From Gottschalkiaceae bacterium SANA (GTDB lineage: Bacteria; Bacillota; Clostridia; Tissierellales; GPF-1), in assembly GCA_036323355.1 (NCBI GenBank), contig AP028876.1, forward strand, positions 1,426,001 through 1,490,000: a stretch of 64,000 bases of DNA, read 5' to 3'. The first letter of the stretch is position 1; the number at the start of each line of letters is the position of its first letter. The notes under the pieces are model-generated. The model made no database searches, was not told where the DNA came from, and saw nothing but the letters and a program-made list of their open reading frames with translations. Of the stretch, positions 3,923 to 11,090 are shown piece after piece. The position numbers and the translations under genes are program-made.

Positions 3923-4187
3923 ATCATTAAAACCAAAAGCAAATTCAAAGGCAAAGATCGAAAGAAAATTCTTGTGGGTGTCCATAGCGAACCGGGTAGA
4001 GTGTAAGCCGGTGGCAGAAACAAGATGACGAGCTTTCGGGAGCTGTCGATTCAACCCAGCTGGGTCAAAATCGGACGAAACCGCACGTTAAGCGGCACGC
4101 AATCAGCGTGATGAGTGAGCAAATATTTATGCTAATTAGGGTGGTACCGCGAAATCTTTCGTCCCTTTCAGACGAGAGATTTTTTTG
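3923..4187 (+). promoter_or_regulatory. T-box leader, copy 2
   Basis: A second T-box leader, clearly homologous to the one at 1362-1610. The apical Stem I region (GAACCGGG...GTAAGCCGGT, about 3989-4012), the candidate specifier region (ATGACGAG at 4025-4032), the CGATT/AATCG hairpin and the T-box AGGGTGGTACCGCG (4138-4151) are all kept. The terminator pairs 4153-4163 with 4171-4181 and ends in a T run. Differences from copy 1 fall largely in loops or as paired changes; for example the terminator stem has AATC/GATT where copy 1 has AACC/GGTT. Both copies therefore look functional and appear to share a specifier. Confidence 0.93.
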
Positions 4188-4213: not shown

Positions 4214-4999
4214 ATGAAAAAGGTAGCTGTATTTTTAGCAATTTTAATGGTGGCAATGGCATTCGCAGGATGTGGGGTAGAGGCAGAAACAAGCAAGGTG
4301 GATCAAATCAAGGAAGCAGGTCAATTGGTATTGGGTACATCGGCAGATTATCCACCCTATGAATTTCATAAGATGATTAATGGAGAAGATCAAATTGTGG
4401 GATTTGATATTATGATTGCACAAAAAATTGCTGAAGAATTGGGAGTTGAATTAGTTATTAAAGATATGGCCTTTGACGGACTGATTGCAGCCTTGCAGGG
4501 TGGCAAAGTGGATATTATTGTTGCAGGCATGTCCGATACACCGGAGCGTGCGGAAGTAGTAGATTTCAGTCAACAGTACTATTATGAGAAACAAACATTG
4601 CTGATTAAAAAAGAAATGATGGAAACCTACACCGATATTGCATCATTGGATGACGCCAAAATCGGTGTTCAAACCTCTTCGATTCAAGAAGGGCTAGCTC
4701 AAGAGACATTGACAAATAGTATGCTAACCTCATTGCCGGATATTGGGGCTTTGGTATTGGAGTTGAAGACTGGTAAGGTTGAGGGTGTGGTGTTGGTAAA
4801 ACCTGTCGCAAATGGTTATATTGCGCAGAATCCTGAATTATCGCTTTCCACAATCGATTTTGGTCAGAGTGATGGCGCATCGGCAGCTGTACAAAAAGGA
4901 AGCGATTTAGTTGTACCTGTGAATAAGGTATTGGGTGAAATTATTGAAAGTGGAGAATTAGAGCAATTTGTATTCGAAGCAACCATGATGCTTGAGTAA
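4214..4999 (+). CDS. Amino-acid ABC transporter substrate-binding lipoprotein, paralogue
   Basis: A 261-residue paralogue of the binding protein at 1637, with a nearly identical signal peptide and lipobox (FAGC) and the same LGTSADYPPYEFHK opening. Divergence is greater in the C-terminal lobe, for example ISQ/FSQQYYYEKQ against FTNEYYFETQ and a different tail. It starts at the ATG at 4214 after GAGGAGG. There is no permease or ATPase after it; a terminator follows. The likely reading is a recent tandem duplication giving a second receptor for the same importer, with own T-box control. Divergence of the ligand-binding lobes suggests altered specificity or affinity, which is inference. Confidence 0.92.
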   Translation: MKKVAVFLAILMVAMAFAGCGVEAETSKVDQIKEAGQLVLGTSADYPPYEFHKMINGEDQIVGFDIMIAQKIAEELGVELVIKDMAFDGLIAALQGGKVDIIVAGMSDTPERAEVVDFSQQYYYEKQTLLIKKEMMETYTDIASLDDAKIGVQTSSIQEGLAQETLTNSMLTSLPDIGALVLELKTGKVEGVVLVKPVANGYIAQNPELSLSTIDFGQSDGASAAVQKGSDLVVPVNKVLGEIIESGELEQFVFEATMMLE

Positions 5000-6279: not shown

Positions 6280-6308
6280 TTGATAAAACCGAATTTGTCC
6301 TGTAGGAT
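6280..6308 (+). promoter_or_regulatory. Promoter of a small gene
   Basis: TTGATA at 6280-6285, a 17-base spacer and TAGGAT at 6303-6308. It lies about 60 bases ahead of a 40-codon reading frame that has a strong ribosome binding site. Confidence 0.6.
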
Positions 6309-6368
6309 GATGTCAGGTTACAGAAACGAAACAATTGATTAACAAATTTTCGAAAGGAGGACAAAGCT

Positions 6369-6491
6369 ATGATGACAACAACCAAGCAACATACAATTAG
6401 CAGTAACTTAAAAATGGATTGGAATGAACCACAGGATACCTGTGTTCAAAAGTCAAATAATAGGATTGTCCTTCAGGAGAGCGTACGATAA
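6369..6491 (+). CDS. Small protein of unknown function, 40 residues
   Basis: A 40-codon reading frame starting MMTTTKQHT and ending VLQESVR, with tryptophan and one cysteine in the middle (MDWNEPQDTC). I do not recognise it. It has a very strong GAAAGGAGG ribosome binding site (6352-6360), a plausible promoter at 6280-6308 and a terminator at 6511-6540, so it has the parts of a free-standing gene. No signal peptide or membrane helix is seen. It lies directly upstream of the heterodimeric ABC exporter, separated by two terminators. It could also be a leader peptide for the exporter. Confidence 0.55.
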   Translation: MMTTTKQHTISSNLKMDWNEPQDTCVQKSNNRIVLQESVR

Positions 6492-6510
6492 AATAGTTCG
6501 TAAGCTGAAA

Positions 6511-6540
6511 CCATAGGGCGATCTGCTCTATGGTTTTTTT
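6511..6540 (+). terminator. Terminator after small gene
   Basis: CCATAG (6511-6516) pairs with CTATGG (about 6528-6533) around a loop, followed by seven Ts. Confidence 0.85.
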
Positions 6541-6583
6541 GCGGCCTACGATTGGTAATTATTGGTAAATTTTACCGAAATGC

Positions 6584-6611
6584 CCCGCAGGGAAACCTGC
6601 GGGATTTTTTT
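6584..6611 (+). terminator. Second terminator ahead of ABC exporter
   Basis: CCCGCAGG (6584-6591) pairs with CCTGCGGG (6596-6603) with a GAAA loop, followed by seven Ts. It stands only 30 bases upstream of the exporter start and 44 bases after the preceding terminator. This makes it a candidate attenuator in the exporter leader rather than a plain end of transcript. Confidence 0.85.
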
Positions 6612-6633
6612 ATGCAAAAAAGGGGGGAACACC

Positions 6634-8433
6634 ATGGAATTTTATAAACAATTACGTCAACACATTCGCGGTTCGGAACGTACCTTCCTGATCGCTATTG
6701 GATCGGTTTTGATTGCCAGTTATCTTGCAACGTTGAGTCCATTAATTATTCAATTTGCCATTGATCAATTATTAACAGGAAAGCCTCTAGTACAAGATCA
6801 TTGGCTGAGTCAACTACTGATGCAAGGAATGGCGGGACGAACCGCAAACCAGGGACTGCTTTTGATGGGTCTTGCATTGACAATTGTGATGGCAGGTCGT
6901 GGAATCTTTGATTTCTTTAAGGGGCGCAACGTGGCTTTGGCATCTGAAACTACGGTGGAACGCATTCGCGACAAACTGTATACCCATCTTCAGCACTTGT
7001 TTTTTGAAGATTTGGGGGATGCAAAGAGTGGCGAATGGATTCAACGATGTTCGTCAGACGTGGAAACCGTTAGAAAATTTTTGGCTAACCAATTGACTGA
7101 AATCATTCGTGCAGTCGCTTTATTTGGATTTACCTTATGGATGATGCTGCAAATTGATTGGCGCATGACGATTTTATCTACCTTCTTGATTCCGCCAATA
7201 TTCGGATTTGCCTTTTTCTTTTTCAGGAAGGTTCAAAAGCTCTTTCTGGATATGGATGAGACGGAAGGCGAACTTTCGGCATTGCTTCAGGAAAATCTGA
7301 CGGGGGTTCGGGTGGTTCGTGCTTTTGGCAGAGAAGGAACAGAAGCAGCTAAGTTTGATAAGAAAAGTCAGGAGTATCGAGACAAGACCATGTCCTTGGT
7401 CAAGGCAATTGCGATCTATTGGGGCAGCTCGGATTTTTTGGCCATGATGCAGCGCACCTTGGTGATTTTAGTCGGTACAGTTTGGGCCGTGCAAGGTCGG
7501 GTGAGTTTGGGAACTGTAGTTGCTTTTTTCACCTATATCAATATGATTCTCTGGCCGATTCGTCAAATGGGTCGAATTTTGACAGACCTTAGCAAATGCA
7601 AGGTTTCTCTGGGTCGAATCGAAGAGCTGCTAGCGTTACCAACTGAAGACTTTGATGAAAGCAAGTCGATGGAAACCATCTCGGGTCGTGTAGAACTGAG
7701 AAATCTCACCTTTGCTTATCCAGGTGAAAAACCGATTTTGAAAGACTTGAACCTGATTATTGAGAAGGGCGAAACCATTGGAATTGTAGGTCCTACCGGG
7801 TCTGGTAAAAGTACCCTTGCACACTTGATTGCGGGTTTGATTCCAGTCAATAAGGATCAGATTTTGATCGATGACAAAGATATTGGCAGCTTTCCAGCCA
7901 AGGCCCTCAGAAGGCAAATTGGGATTGTAATGCAGGAACCATTTCTTTTCGCTAGAAATATTCGAAAAAATATTGCAATCAAGGATGAGACTGTTAGTGA
8001 TCATGATGTAATCGGAGCGACTGAGACAGCCTCCTTGCATCAGACGATTCTGGGCTTTGACGCAGGCTATGAGACAGAAATTGGAGAGCGCGGCGTGTCT
8101 TTATCAGGCGGACAGAAACAGAGGATGGCAATTGCCCGCACGATTATCGACGAGGTGCCCATTGTGGTCTTTGATGATTCATTAAGTGCTGTGGATGCAG
8201 GAACGGATATTGAAATTCGGAATCGATTGAAGGCGAGAAAGCATCAGGCGACTACCTTGATTATTGCCCATCGCTTGAACAGTGTTATGCACGCAGATCG
8301 CATCCTGGTCTTGCGGGATGGCAGAATCGAAGCCATTGGAAGCCATGAAGAACTGTTGAAAGACAAGGGATATTATCGACGTCTTTGGGAAATACAACGT
8401 GGAGATTGGAAGGAGGAGAATCGCTGTGGATAA
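6634..8433 (+). CDS. Heterodimeric ABC exporter, subunit with degenerate ATP site
   Basis: A 599-residue half-transporter with an N-terminal six-helix exporter domain (about 20-320) and a C-terminal ATPase domain. Walker A is GPTGSGKST (about 386-394), the signature is LSGGQKQR, and Walker B reads IVVFDDSLSAVD. The catalytic glutamate after Walker B is therefore aspartate, as in the degenerate half of heterodimeric exporters such as BmrCD and TM287/288. The ATG at 6634 follows AAGGGGGG. It overlaps the partner gene by 8 bases. The likely role is multidrug or lipid/peptide export; the substrate is unknown. Confidence 0.92.
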   Translation: MEFYKQLRQHIRGSERTFLIAIGSVLIASYLATLSPLIIQFAIDQLLTGKPLVQDHWLSQLLMQGMAGRTANQGLLLMGLALTIVMAGRGIFDFFKGRNVALASETTVERIRDKLYTHLQHLFFEDLGDAKSGEWIQRCSSDVETVRKFLANQLTEIIRAVALFGFTLWMMLQIDWRMTILSTFLIPPIFGFAFFFFRKVQKLFLDMDETEGELSALLQENLTGVRVVRAFGREGTEAAKFDKKSQEYRDKTMSLVKAIAIYWGSSDFLAMMQRTLVILVGTVWAVQGRVSLGTVVAFFTYINMILWPIRQMGRILTDLSKCKVSLGRIEELLALPTEDFDESKSMETISGRVELRNLTFAYPGEKPILKDLNLIIEKGETIGIVGPTGSGKSTLAHLIAGLIPVNKDQILIDDKDIGSFPAKALRRQIGIVMQEPFLFARNIRKNIAIKDETVSDHDVIGATETASLHQTILGFDAGYETEIGERGVSLSGGQKQRMAIARTIIDEVPIVVFDDSLSAVDAGTDIEIRNRLKARKHQATTLIIAHRLNSVMHADRILVLRDGRIEAIGSHEELLKDKGYYRRLWEIQRGDWKEENRCG

Positions 8434-10210
8434 AAAACAAAAAAGTCAATGGACTGTCATTAAAGAATTAGCACAATTTTTTAAACCCCATCGCAAGCAA
8501 GTGATTCAACTTACCTTGTTGATGATCTTTGTGGGTATGATGGATGCCATCTCGCCTTATTTTTCTAAATATGCGATTGACACCTATATTGAAACGGGTA
8601 GCCTGGATCACTATGGCATCTTTGCAGGTATCTATTTGGCTCAGGTTATCTTCTTGAGCATCAGTGTATATGGGTTGATTTATCTGGCCGATTCCATTGG
8701 AACCAAGGTTAGCTACGATGTGAGGAAACGGGGATTCGAAAATCTGCAGGAGTTGTCTTTCTCTTATTATGACAAGACCCCTGTGGGATGGATTATGGCA
8801 AGGATGACATCGGATATCGGAAAGATTACGGAAGGTATATCTTGGGCATTGGTTGATATGGTATGGGGAATCACCATGATCATTGGCATTCTTGGTATTA
8901 TGCTGGTGACCAATTGGCGGCTAACTATGATCATGATCGTATTAATGCCGATTCTGATGGTCGTGAGTTATTTTTTCCAAAATCGGATCCTCAAGCAACA
9001 GCGGAAAGTGCGAAAGATGAATTCTCGGATTACCGGTGCATTCAGCGAAGGAATCATGGGAGCAAGAACCACCAAAAGCTTGGTTCGAGAAGAGAAAAAT
9101 ATTGAAGAGTTTGAAGATCTTGCAGGCAATATGCGGGGTGCAGCAGTTCGTTCAGCCACCTTCTCTGCCGCCTATATTCCCATTGTATTTTTAATCAATG
9201 TAGTGGGGCAGGCTCTTATCCTCATCCGGGGAGGCACGGGGGTTCTTAACGGCAGCATTAGCTATGGCACCTTGGTTGCCTTTATCTCATACGCAGTCTT
9301 GATGTTCGAACCAGTACACCACTTTGCTGTGGTTATGGCCCAGTTTCAGGCCACTCGGGCTTCAGCGGAAAGAGTTATGTCTCTTTTGGAAGAAAAACCG
9401 GATGTACGAGATTTGGAAGCTGTGGTTGACGAATACGGTACAGCCTTAGCGCCAAAACGTGAGAACTGGCCGTCTTTGTCGGGTGCTATTTCCTTTGACG
9501 ATGTGTCTTTTGCCTATAATGCCAAAGAACCTGTATTGGATCATTTCACCTTGGATGTTAAGCAAGGTGAAACCATAGCACTGGTAGGCGAAACGGGATC
9601 TGGAAAAAGTACCATTGTGAATCTTGCCTGTCGTTTCTATGAACCGACTGAGGGCGAGATTCGGATTGACGGGGTCAACATTCAAGAGCGGTCGCAATTG
9701 TGGCTACATGATTCCCTCGGTTATGTCTTGCAGCAGCCCATGCTCTTTAGCGGGAGTATTCGGGAGAATATTCATTACGGCCGAGAAGATGCTACGGAAG
9801 AGGAAATTGTAGAGGCGGCAAAACAGGTACATGCCCATGACTTTATCCAACGCCTACCGGATGGTTACAACACCGAGGTTGGAGAAGGGGGCGCTAAGCT
9901 CTCTACGGGACAAAAGCAACTCATATCGTTTGCCCGTGCGATTCTGAAGAATCCAAAGATCTTTATACTGGATGAGGCAACCTCGTCAATCGACTTGGAA
10001 ACCGAGGTTCAGATCCAAAGAGCAACTCAAGCCATCTTGGCTGGAAGAACCAGTTTTATCATCGCCCATCGATTATCGACCATCGTTCACGCAGATAAAA
10101 TCTTGGTATTAAAGGATGGTCGCATTGCTGAAGCGGGTAATCACAATAGCCTGATGAAGGCAAAAGGAATTTATTATGGCTTGTATCGAAGTCAATTCGA
10201 CGCGGCATAG
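8426..10210 (+). CDS. Heterodimeric ABC exporter, partner subunit
   Basis: A 594-residue half-transporter with transmembrane helices over about residues 20-310 and an ATPase domain with Walker A GETGSGKST, Walker B IFILDEATSSID with the canonical glutamate, and signature LSTGQKQL instead of LSGGQ. An altered signature here pairs with the Asp-containing Walker B of the upstream subunit to make the one degenerate site. GTG at 8426 is preferred because AGGAGG at 8411-8416 serves it; an earlier in-frame GTG at 8399 has no such site. The gene is followed by the unusual hairpin and small-gene region. Confidence 0.92.
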   Translation: MDKKQKSQWTVIKELAQFFKPHRKQVIQLTLLMIFVGMMDAISPYFSKYAIDTYIETGSLDHYGIFAGIYLAQVIFLSISVYGLIYLADSIGTKVSYDVRKRGFENLQELSFSYYDKTPVGWIMARMTSDIGKITEGISWALVDMVWGITMIIGILGIMLVTNWRLTMIMIVLMPILMVVSYFFQNRILKQQRKVRKMNSRITGAFSEGIMGARTTKSLVREEKNIEEFEDLAGNMRGAAVRSATFSAAYIPIVFLINVVGQALILIRGGTGVLNGSISYGTLVAFISYAVLMFEPVHHFAVVMAQFQATRASAERVMSLLEEKPDVRDLEAVVDEYGTALAPKRENWPSLSGAISFDDVSFAYNAKEPVLDHFTLDVKQGETIALVGETGSGKSTIVNLACRFYEPTEGEIRIDGVNIQERSQLWLHDSLGYVLQQPMLFSGSIRENIHYGREDATEEEIVEAAKQVHAHDFIQRLPDGYNTEVGEGGAKLSTGQKQLISFARAILKNPKIFILDEATSSIDLETEVQIQRATQAILAGRTSFIIAHRLSTIVHADKILVLKDGRIAEAGNHNSLMKAKGIYYGLYRSQFDAA

Positions 10211-10212
10211 CC

Positions 10213-10320
10213 ATGATTGATGTTGGCGGCAGGAAATGCTTGCATATCCTGAGCCAAGCATCAATTAGGGCAAGGATCGAAAGATCCTTAAAGAAAACCC
10301 AAGGAGGAACCATTGCCTAA
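10213..10320 (+). CDS. Possible 35-residue reading frame, doubtful
   Basis: A reading frame from ATG 10213, two bases after the exporter stop, ending KKTQGGTIA at the first hairpin repeat. Its last residues resemble the QGG stretches of the two frames at 10394 and 10470, because all three run through the same DNA repeat. No good ribosome binding site precedes it. It may be a chance frame over a structured RNA. Confidence 0.2.
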   Translation: MIDVGGRKCLHILSQASIRARIERSLKKTQGGTIA

Positions 10321-10393
10321 AATGGTTCACGAAATCAAGAAGTAGGGAGTGTAACCATTCCCTGGAACAAGCGTCGGTGCTTGCGAGGATCAT

Positions 10394-10501
10394 ATGGTTT
10401 ATATGATCCTAAAGGAAAACCAAGGAGGGGCCATTGCTTTAGATGGTCCACGAGGAACCATTGGTTTAAATGGTTCACGAAACCCAAGGAGGGATCATTG
10501 A
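10394..10501 (+). CDS. Possible 35-residue reading frame through hairpin repeats, doubtful
   Basis: A reading frame from ATG 10394 that encodes ENQGGAIALDGPRGTIGLNG and ends RRDH. A weak GAGG lies at 10385-10388. The same QGG-x-I-x-LDGPRGTIGLNGSR segment recurs in the next overlapping frame, which follows from the DNA repeat. Paired changes in the stems argue that structure, not protein, is under selection. Confidence 0.25.
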   Translation: MVYMILKENQGGAIALDGPRGTIGLNGSRNPRRDH

Positions 10502-10607
10502 TTTAGATGGTCCACGAGGAACCATTGGTTTAAATGGTTCACGAACTTCAATGTGTATGTACATGTTTGCATCTTTTGCAAACAGCATAAATAAATGGTA
10601 AAACGGA
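10470..10607 (+). CDS. Possible 43-45-residue reading frame through hairpin repeats, doubtful
   Basis: A reading frame from ATG 10470 with ETQGGIIDLDGPRGTIGLNG, ending INKW near 10600. It overlaps the frame at 10394 in another phase. The ATG lies in the 3' arm of a hairpin and lacks a properly spaced ribosome binding site. I list it so that the repeated peptide segment is on record; the stop position is approximate. Confidence 0.2.
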
Positions 10608-10642
10608 TCAACTGATCCTAAAAATAGAAAAGGAGGAAGATG

Positions 10643-10732
10643 ATGATTATGATTATCAGCAAAACAAAAACCGAATTGAGAGTGAAGGACGACCACGAGT
10701 TACGAAAACGGAGACGAAAAAACAGGAGGTAG
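10643..10732 (+). CDS. Small basic protein A1, 29 residues, unknown function
   Basis: A 29-residue frame beginning MIMIISKTKTE and ending in the very basic tail ELRKRRRKNRR. AAAGGAGG at 10629-10636 fits the ATG at 10643 (ATG 10640 is an alternative). Its last codons AGGAGG form the ribosome binding site of the next gene, so the two are coupled. It resembles the small protein at 10867 in length, basic charge and position before a B-type gene. I do not recognise it. It could be a leader peptide, a nucleic-acid-binding peptide, or part of an exported or toxic peptide pair. Confidence 0.5.
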   Translation: MIMIISKTKTELRVKDDHELRKRRRKNRR

Positions 10733-10737
10733 TAGAC

Positions 10738-10842
10738 ATGAGACGTTTTAAATTTTTCCATTTCCCAGTTGAGCTGATGCATTTTAATTTTATGCGACGC
10801 GGTGACGGGATGGAGCTCTACAGAAGAATAGAGCGACTGTAA
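10738..10842 (+). CDS. Small protein B1 with DGMxLYRxIER motif, 34 residues
   Basis: A 34-residue frame starting MRRFKFFHFP and ending DGMELYRRIERL. AGGAGG at 10724-10729, eight bases ahead of the ATG, is contained in the end of the preceding small gene. The C-terminal half matches the small protein at 10946 (NF-x4/5-DGM-[ED]-LYR-x-IER), so the pair is a duplicated family and a real gene is likely. The N-terminus is aromatic and basic. No known family is recognised. Confidence 0.62.
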   Translation: MRRFKFFHFPVELMHFNFMRRGDGMELYRRIERL

Positions 10843-10866
10843 CCCAAATAATGAGGAGGAAAGCAA

Positions 10867-11001
10867 ATGATGACAGATCGGCATATAGACCGGCGAAAAG
10901 CTTGGAGAGAGGATCGATTTGTCCGGAAACGGAAAGGAGTAACAAATGAAACGACTATTTACATGGATTTATTCGAGCCAACTAGGCTTCTGGAATTTTG
11001 A
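10867..11001 (+). CDS. Small basic protein A2, 44 residues, unknown function
   Basis: A 44-residue frame beginning MMTDRHIDRRKAWRED with a basic middle (FVRKRKG). GAGGAGG at 10853-10859 precedes the ATG at 10867. Its 3' part overlaps the next small gene in another phase, and it contains that gene's AAGGAG ribosome binding site. It corresponds in position and charge to the A1 frame at 10643, giving the order A1-B1-A2-B2. Sequence likeness between A1 and A2 is limited to the basic charge pattern, so homology is unproven. Confidence 0.5.
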   Translation: MMTDRHIDRRKAWREDRFVRKRKGVTNETTIYMDLFEPTRLLEF

Positions 11002-11053
11002 GAAGAAGGTTGACGGAATGGATCTTTACCGTTCGATTGAACGGATTTCATAG
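10946..11053 (+). CDS. Small protein B2 with DGMxLYRxIER motif, 35 residues
   Basis: A 35-residue frame starting MKRLFTWIYSSQLGFWNF and ending DGMDLYRSIERIS, clearly related to B1 at 10738. AAGGAG at 10934-10939 is spaced six bases from the ATG. It overlaps A2 by 56 bases and is followed within a few bases by a strong terminator, which closes the small-gene cluster. The conserved DGM-LYR-IER part with a variable aromatic N-terminus is the best evidence that these frames are translated and selected. Confidence 0.62.
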   Translation: MKRLFTWIYSSQLGFWNFEKKVDGMDLYRSIERIS

Positions 11054-11055
11054 AC

Positions 11056-11090
11056 AAGAGGAGAAGGCTGAGGCCTTCTCCTCTTTCAAT
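11056..11090. terminator. Terminator of small-gene cluster (possibly bidirectional)
   Basis: A perfect 12-bp stem, AGAGGAGAAGGC (11057-11068) with GCCTTCTCCTCT (11073-11084), a four-base loop and a T-rich tail on the plus side. The convergent minus-strand gene ends at 11091, so it may serve both. Confidence 0.85.

Follow-up and report, generated by a model that had tools for sequence, protein, structure and literature searches.

Downstream of the two genes encoding a heterodimeric ABC exporter in Gottschalkiaceae bacterium SANA, four very small open reading frames, A1, B1, A2 and B2, lie in a row and end at an intrinsic terminator. This arrangement raises the question of whether such short frames encode proteins and, if they do, whether their products serve the adjoining exporter or have a role of their own. 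An earlier note on this DNA recognized a motif common to B1 and B2 and suggested that the small genes, the exporter and a neighboring hairpin array form one functional unit. Here, we describe a computational analysis of the locus in the window, the whole 64,000-nucleotide stretch of contig AP028876.1 that was analyzed, and in two sister genomes (G001 and G002) that represent two other species of the same genus as the window genome (G000). What is new is that B1 and B2 belong to a larger, apparently undescribed family, of which the earlier note saw two members.

Results

Architecture of the four-gene row

The four small ORFs, their good ribosome sites and the terminator are all present where the earlier note had placed them, and its size range of 29-44 codons is correct (Table 1). 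The coupled overlaps that it described apply to A2 and B2, which overlap by 56 bases, and do not apply to A1 and B1, where only the SD sequence of B1 overlaps the end of A1. The second ATG of A1, at 10643, is better spaced from its AAGGAGG than the ATG at 10640. The exporter adjoins the B1-B2 locus in all three species, and downstream of B2 the terminator is followed by a convergent gene encoding a beta-CASP metallo-hydrolase.

Table 1. Positions of the features discussed; plain numbers refer to the window
Feature	Position	Strand	Remarks
Exporter leader ORF, 40 aa	6369..6491	+	two terminator-like hairpins follow; not B family
ABC exporter half-transporter 1, 599 aa	6634..8433	+	Pfam ABC_membrane and ABC_tran; no peptidase domain
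ABC exporter half-transporter 2	8426..10210	+	GTG start by eye
Structured hairpin array upstream of A1	10211..10639	+	composite units 10229-10293 and 10342-10414, and further AAGGAGG/hairpin repeats
A1, basic ORF of 29-30 aa	10643..10732 (ATG 10640 or 10643)	+	core RVKDDHELRKRR
B1, 34 aa, GMDLYR microprotein family	10738..10842	+	0 or 1 amino-acid change between species
A2, basic ORF	10867..11001	+	conserved in first 24-26 codons only
B2, 35 aa, same family as B1	10946..11053	+	
Intrinsic terminator, 13-bp stem	11056..11085	+	stem also in G001 and G002
C-locus upstream dyads and element	L011 900-1100; G000:C1 about 3229830-3230110		
ECF sigma factor gene, then 392-aa protein gene	L048 2228-3867		directly before D1
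D2 upstream element	L054 1343-1377; L048 4014-4048; G001:C44:177742-177776		inverted repeat, then TGGGTATATAAA

A family of microproteins with a common C-terminus

B1 and B2 are identical at 14 of 34 positions across their whole length (BLASTP, E=1e-9 for that single comparison). Searching with the motif as a DNA pattern revealed a third site in the window genome, 1.8 Mb away, that carries three more tandem B-like ORFs, and a profile of five G000 members gave 20 matches in the three genomes, the five queries included, with E values from 8.7e-4 to 1.9e-20. One further member in G000 was found with a profile of 20 members. The B family comprises 21 intact members of 33-35 residues, arranged in units of one to five genes; they are spread over three types of locus, and the three species that carry them belong to one genus. 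G000 has six (B1 and B2; C1-C3; D2), G001 also has six (two, three and one at the respective loci) and G002 has nine (two, five and two); the C-locus units of G002 repeat every 133-134 bases. In G001 the start region of D1 has been lost, as judged by eye, so at least that copy is dispensable. The motif recognized earlier in two genes marks a real conserved family, as its profile matches three genomes of the genus. The earlier note had also made short-ORF homologues in related genomes and frames free of frameshifts the test of its reading; homologues exist in both sister genomes, so the reading withstood its own test, and the frames of B1 and B2 are unbroken in both other species.

The part common to the members is the C-terminus, GMDLYRxIExL followed by the stop codon, and the N-terminal halves vary among paralogues. 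Most conserved columns fall within the final twelve residues, which follow G/A-M/L-D/E/N-L/I-Y/L-R-x-I-E-x-L/I apart from some exceptions, and the I and E of the tail are invariant in all 21 members. Since several members also have [IL][FY]P-x-[ED]-[LI] in common in the first half, where C2 and C3 have drifted by eye, the family looks homologous over its full length.

Coding evidence for the small genes

Every one of the 21 B genes has an SD match that is 5 nt or longer, with a spacing of 6-9; for comparison, such a match at a spacing of 3-13 precedes 157 of the 2473 ATGs of the window. Silent and replacement changes were counted with our own script in the Nei-Gojobori style, rounded, and compared by a Fisher test for B1, B2, C1, C3, D2, A1 and A2 (C2 and D1 were left out). 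Between G000 and G002, the pooled B1, B2, C1, C3 and D2 genes differ at 34 of 97 silent sites versus 31 of 413 replacement sites (p=5e-11). For the same pair B1 has 5 silent changes versus 1 replacement change (p=0.001), and the single-gene values are p=0.03 for B2, 0.0005 for C1 and 6e-7 for C3; D2 orthologues change fast (p=0.32). On the strength of the SD matches and the mostly silent change, which bear out the earlier judgment that translation is likely, we consider it beyond reasonable doubt that the B genes are protein coding, and probable that A1 is. An antisense protein across B1 was considered and rejected: its frame is open in three species, but it changes 4, 5 and 3 residues over comparisons in which B1 changes 1, 1 and 0 (5 versus 1 between G000 and G002), and an antisense frame that changes more residues than B1 is not kept as a protein.

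A1 differs between G000 and G001 at 5 of 16.2 silent sites and 4 of 73.8 replacement sites (p=0.008), and its length differs between species; it is probably a conserved, protein-coding basic peptide of this locus only. The corresponding comparison for A2 gives p=0.24, and the part of A2 that runs over B2 stops at positions that vary among the three species; A2 is a candidate protein only. A1 and A2 do not align in BLASTP, and a six-row alignment read by eye leaves as their only common core [KR][DE]D-x-x-[LV]-RKR[RK]. A profile of the A ORFs, run on the three genomes, recovers all six of them at this locus, and its next match has 0.23.

Distribution and database matches

The B family was sought in samples of the order, the class and the phylum, which overlap, the latter two being draws from larger groups. 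At a cutoff of E 1e-3, the five-member profile matched 3 of 249 order genomes, each belonging to the window genus; the next match had 0.0021. With the 20-member profile, 1 of 391 genomes of the class matched at 0.003, the window genome itself, and 3 of 398 genomes of the phylum matched, namely the window genome and two with partial matches. One of these (2.2e-4) lies within an 883-aa frame and covers profile positions 23-34 only, and the other (0.0017) lies in a 99-aa frame and covers positions 8-27 only; both were taken as chance. A search of genome contigs with the motif as a DNA pattern yielded a single contig, DAOUQF010000002.1, equal in length to one of the G001 contigs, and among viral contigs none of 51 pattern matches was confirmed and a second pattern gave 0. 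Phage and plasmid records gave no match to C1 alone. In the samples searched, the family was thus not found with confidence outside the window genus. Families confined to one genus are common.

Database comparisons likewise gave no convincing relative. Three of 20 members matched Pfam, at a best E of 0.18; 0 of 20 matched NCBIfam and 0 of 21 matched PADLOC. In PHROGs, one family matched 1 of 20 members (E 0.0016, residues 1-25 only) and a second matched 2 of 20 (best 0.07), none of them convincing. In the PDB, the sole profile match had an E of 0.39 and was attributed to chance; C1 alone matched nothing. The stretch DGMELxRRI bears what we take to be a resemblance to receiver-domain helices; no receiver family is among the Pfam matches of B members. 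Fusions of the motif into large proteins were looked for in the window genome, where all six profile matches lie in open frames of 36-83 aa. A literature search of titles and the starts of abstracts, which cannot prove absence, returned no paper on the B family. We conclude that the B family is a real microprotein family that is apparently undescribed and apparently restricted to this genus.

The C and D loci

The C locus lies between a gene for an MscS-type channel and a convergent gene for an M42 peptidase, and TTGACA-17-TATACT precedes C1 in all three genomes (by reading). Upstream of this promoter, AT-rich dyads and a ACAAGATATTGGGG...CAATATATC element can be read in the three species.

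At the D locus of G001 and G002, D1 or its remnant follows genes for an ECF sigma factor and a 392-aa protein that has no match in Pfam. D2 follows D1 and has its own terminator. The next gene in G002 is biotin-synthase-like (Radical SAM and BATS domains); G001 has in its place no more than an ORF of 92 aa whose beginning resembles that gene. The D2 of G000 is a solitary copy in a different neighborhood, with its upstream element retained. This element is kept in all three genomes and occurs once in each, at D2; in G000 its inverted repeat is perfect over 15 bp, and TGGGTATATAAA comes next. An element common to D2 and the ECF sigma factor gene was sought, and this one occurs at D2 only.

No exporter gene lies beside the C and D loci in the ORF stretches listed. 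B2 and C3 each precede a convergent gene, and D2 has its terminator and kept element, an organization that suggests that B units act alone.

The exporter leader, the hairpin array and silent divergence

A short ORF with an SD sequence lies directly upstream of the exporter and is followed by two terminator-like hairpins, the first at about 6511-6541 (by eye) and the second at 6584-6603 (by scan). The ORF and both hairpins, contained here in the region 6280-6633, also occur in G002. A leader peptide arrangement has been described for the heterodimeric multidrug exporter of bmrBCD (PMC4191407). As with BmrB-BmrCD of Bacillus subtilis, a heterodimeric exporter is preceded by a short ORF and terminator-like hairpins (6369-6620), and the ORF at 6369-6491 with its hairpins is a probable BmrB-like ribosome-mediated attenuator. 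BmrB is comparable to this upstream leader and not to the A and B genes, which come after the exporter and are closed by a terminator.

The hairpin array between the exporter and A1 is 430 bases long in G000 and about 300 in the sister genomes, with two composite units per genome in three species by our own reading. Its fold relative to shuffled sequences gives z values of -7.8 (G000), -7.6 (G001) and -8.3 (G002). A covariance model was built from six units with a two-hairpin structure supplied and was used to score 150 of the roughly 900 initial candidates in each genome. The model refinds the six building units at E 1e-14 or better; behind these come the complementary strand of the same stretch in G000 and G002 (0.004 and 0.02) and then another site in G002 (0.03). 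By this search, the array appears at locus 1 and, with confidence, nowhere else among the three genomes. Covariation within its units is modest (2 of 17 pairs), and the array matches no Rfam family at the gathering score. At that score Rfam recognizes only T-boxes: two T-box leaders (1365-1590 and 3945-4169) each precede a similar SBP_bac_3 solute-binding protein gene, with ORFs that run to 2419 and 4214-4999, so that this T-box and importer set is duplicated.

The four small genes taken together changed few silent codons: 13 of 100 (G000-G001), 14 of 91 (G000-G002) and 12 of 91 (G001-G002), versus 250 of 534, 248 of 536 and 180 of 537 in the second exporter gene for the same pairs. The gene downstream changed 121 of 283 in the part compared with G001 and 206 of 471 with G002, both relative to G000. 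C1 is also slow (5 of 27, 6 of 29 and 3 of 28), C3 is not (7 of 24, 10 of 22 and 9 of 23), and D2 is mixed. Between G000 and G001, rpsL changed 13 of 132, rpsG 21 of 143 and part of rpoC 103 of 298. The low silent divergence at locus 1 could reflect RNA constraint; since rpsL and rpsG show equally slow silent change, we prefer high expression as its cause. On small counts, the codons of B1 and B2 show no obvious ribosomal preference. The B1-B2 mRNA folds with z values of -2.4, -3.3 and -4.2, and the C-locus mRNA with +2.4, +0.5 and +1.5. Among 17 control windows, two fall below -2, one at -6.7 that overlaps the array and one at -4.9 in the downstream gene, and 1 of 94 predicted pairs covaries in the alignment of the locus.

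Discussion

A tail that may dock a common partner

The explanation that we favor, with a probability of roughly 45%, is that the B proteins are well-expressed intracellular microproteins that act in trans by docking a common partner through a C-terminal helix. The conserved C-terminal stretch would fold into a short amphipathic helix, by which every member would bind one common partner; the N-terminal half, specific to each paralogue, would set the action of each copy there, for example by determining which competing ligand or regulator is displaced. Because the upstream regions differ between loci, which members occupy the partner would depend on the conditions of the cell. At locus 1, the exporter operon, the structured RNA leader and the two A peptides would be local additions, probably for the control of expression. 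Small adaptors or regulators that act in trans and compete for one partner would be expected to have such features: a conserved tail joined to variable heads, units that stand on their own under different upstream regions, and strong ribosome sites.

The predicted properties of the proteins accord with an intracellular location. No membrane segment was found in the 21 members, in which the highest 19-residue mean Eisenberg hydrophobicity is 0.38, and no signal-peptide pattern is visible by eye in the alignment; the earlier suggestion of a small membrane peptide fails for want of a hydrophobic stretch. Shuffling the last 13 residues produced an equal or higher helical moment in at most 5% of cases for 12 of the 21 members; the other nine, namely the three B2, two of the three B1 and the four D members, did not pass this threshold. 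AlphaFold, given the 21 sequences, placed a C-terminal helix in both of its models with low confidence (mean pLDDT 64.6 and 65.5; pTM 0.26 and 0.25). The helical moment and the models would fit a peptide that folds on its partner.

Alternative explanations

The main rival, which we regard as unlikely, is that the B proteins are exported leaderless peptides (signals, or bacteriocin-like or modulin-like products) secreted by the adjacent ABC exporter. The exporter adjoins B1-B2 in all three species, and tandem short genes are a known layout for such peptides. Because, in the ORF stretches listed, the exporter neighbors only locus 1, and the C and D loci have other neighbors, neither an exporter-peptide unit for the family nor the earlier proposal of one functional unit with the exporter is supported. 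Both exporter halves lack a C39 peptidase domain by Pfam, and the peptides have neither the double-glycine leader that would accompany peptidase-type bacteriocin export nor a hydrophobic signal stretch; their conserved part is C-terminal and polar, and a net charge of -4 to +4 across members makes a common antimicrobial role less likely. Small toxins or toxin-antitoxin pairs of A with B, to which small size, tandem copies and the alternation of basic A with B at locus 1 might point, are improbable: B occurs without A at the C and D loci, a hydrophobic membrane segment of the kind found in type I toxins is absent, and PADLOC recognized no member. We give very little credence to a role in cis, in which ribosomes would stall at the conserved tail of a leader or arrest peptide and so control the gene that follows. 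Arrest peptides typically do have conserved residues at their C-terminal end, immediately ahead of the stop codon, and a separate leader ORF of that sort does lie upstream of the exporter. Beyond B2 and C3, however, come a terminator and a convergent gene, so that neither can be the leader of a following gene, and the gene after D2 differs between G000 and G002.

Locus 1 might instead be chiefly an RNA device in which the array and the folded B1-A2-B2 mRNA are functional and the peptides secondary here. The array z near -8 in three species, the slow silent sites of the small ORFs and the B1-B2 mRNA z of -2.4 to -4.2 all lean this way. We nevertheless find it a rather doubtful account, given the excess of silent over replacement changes in B1, the occurrence of the family at loci that have no array and an unstructured mRNA, the equally slow silent sites of ribosomal protein genes, the single covarying pair, and the two control windows that also fold strongly. 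An RNA-binding role is conceivable for A1 and A2 only, as predicted from composition and neighborhood. Peptides of the lambda N type are arginine-rich and bind RNA, lambda N itself binding boxB; A1 and A2 resemble them in being short, rich in Arg and Lys and placed beside an RNA hairpin array, a likeness of composition and neighborhood. A complete circuit at locus 1 can be drawn on this model, in which the A peptides would bind the repeated leader hairpins, as lambda N does boxB, and set the amount of exporter-A-B transcript, and the B proteins would form a modular set that docks one partner through the same C-terminal helix, with variable N-terminal 'instructions'; we consider it highly improbable.

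Comparison with known peptide systems

The B proteins can be set beside several known systems. Phenol-soluble modulins are short leaderless tandem peptides with an ABC exporter, and the B proteins resemble them in being short, leaderless and tandem, with one locus adjoining an ABC exporter; unlike modulins, they are polar, conserved at the C-terminus and mostly encoded away from an exporter. AgrD precursors are short with a charged C-terminal tail, as are the B proteins, but B genes do not lie beside agrB. An AgrD identity was rejected, as agrB lies elsewhere in all three genomes; in G000 it has beside it an AgrD-like ORF of 49 aa that lacks the B motif (by eye; no Pfam match). Type VII secretion, suggested by YxxxE in the tail, was also set aside, the WXG100 family PF06013 being found in 0 of 3 genomes.

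Implications

Gene finders often overlook proteins this small, and the family gains further interest from its copy number, its tandem arrangement and the unusual leader RNA. The structured leader RNA of locus 1 is a further element worth study. A common tail makes it easier to fish for the partner on which the B proteins would act. With six to nine copies per genome in one genus, a common tail and variable heads, the family offers a clean case for following how small proteins originate, multiply and are put to use.
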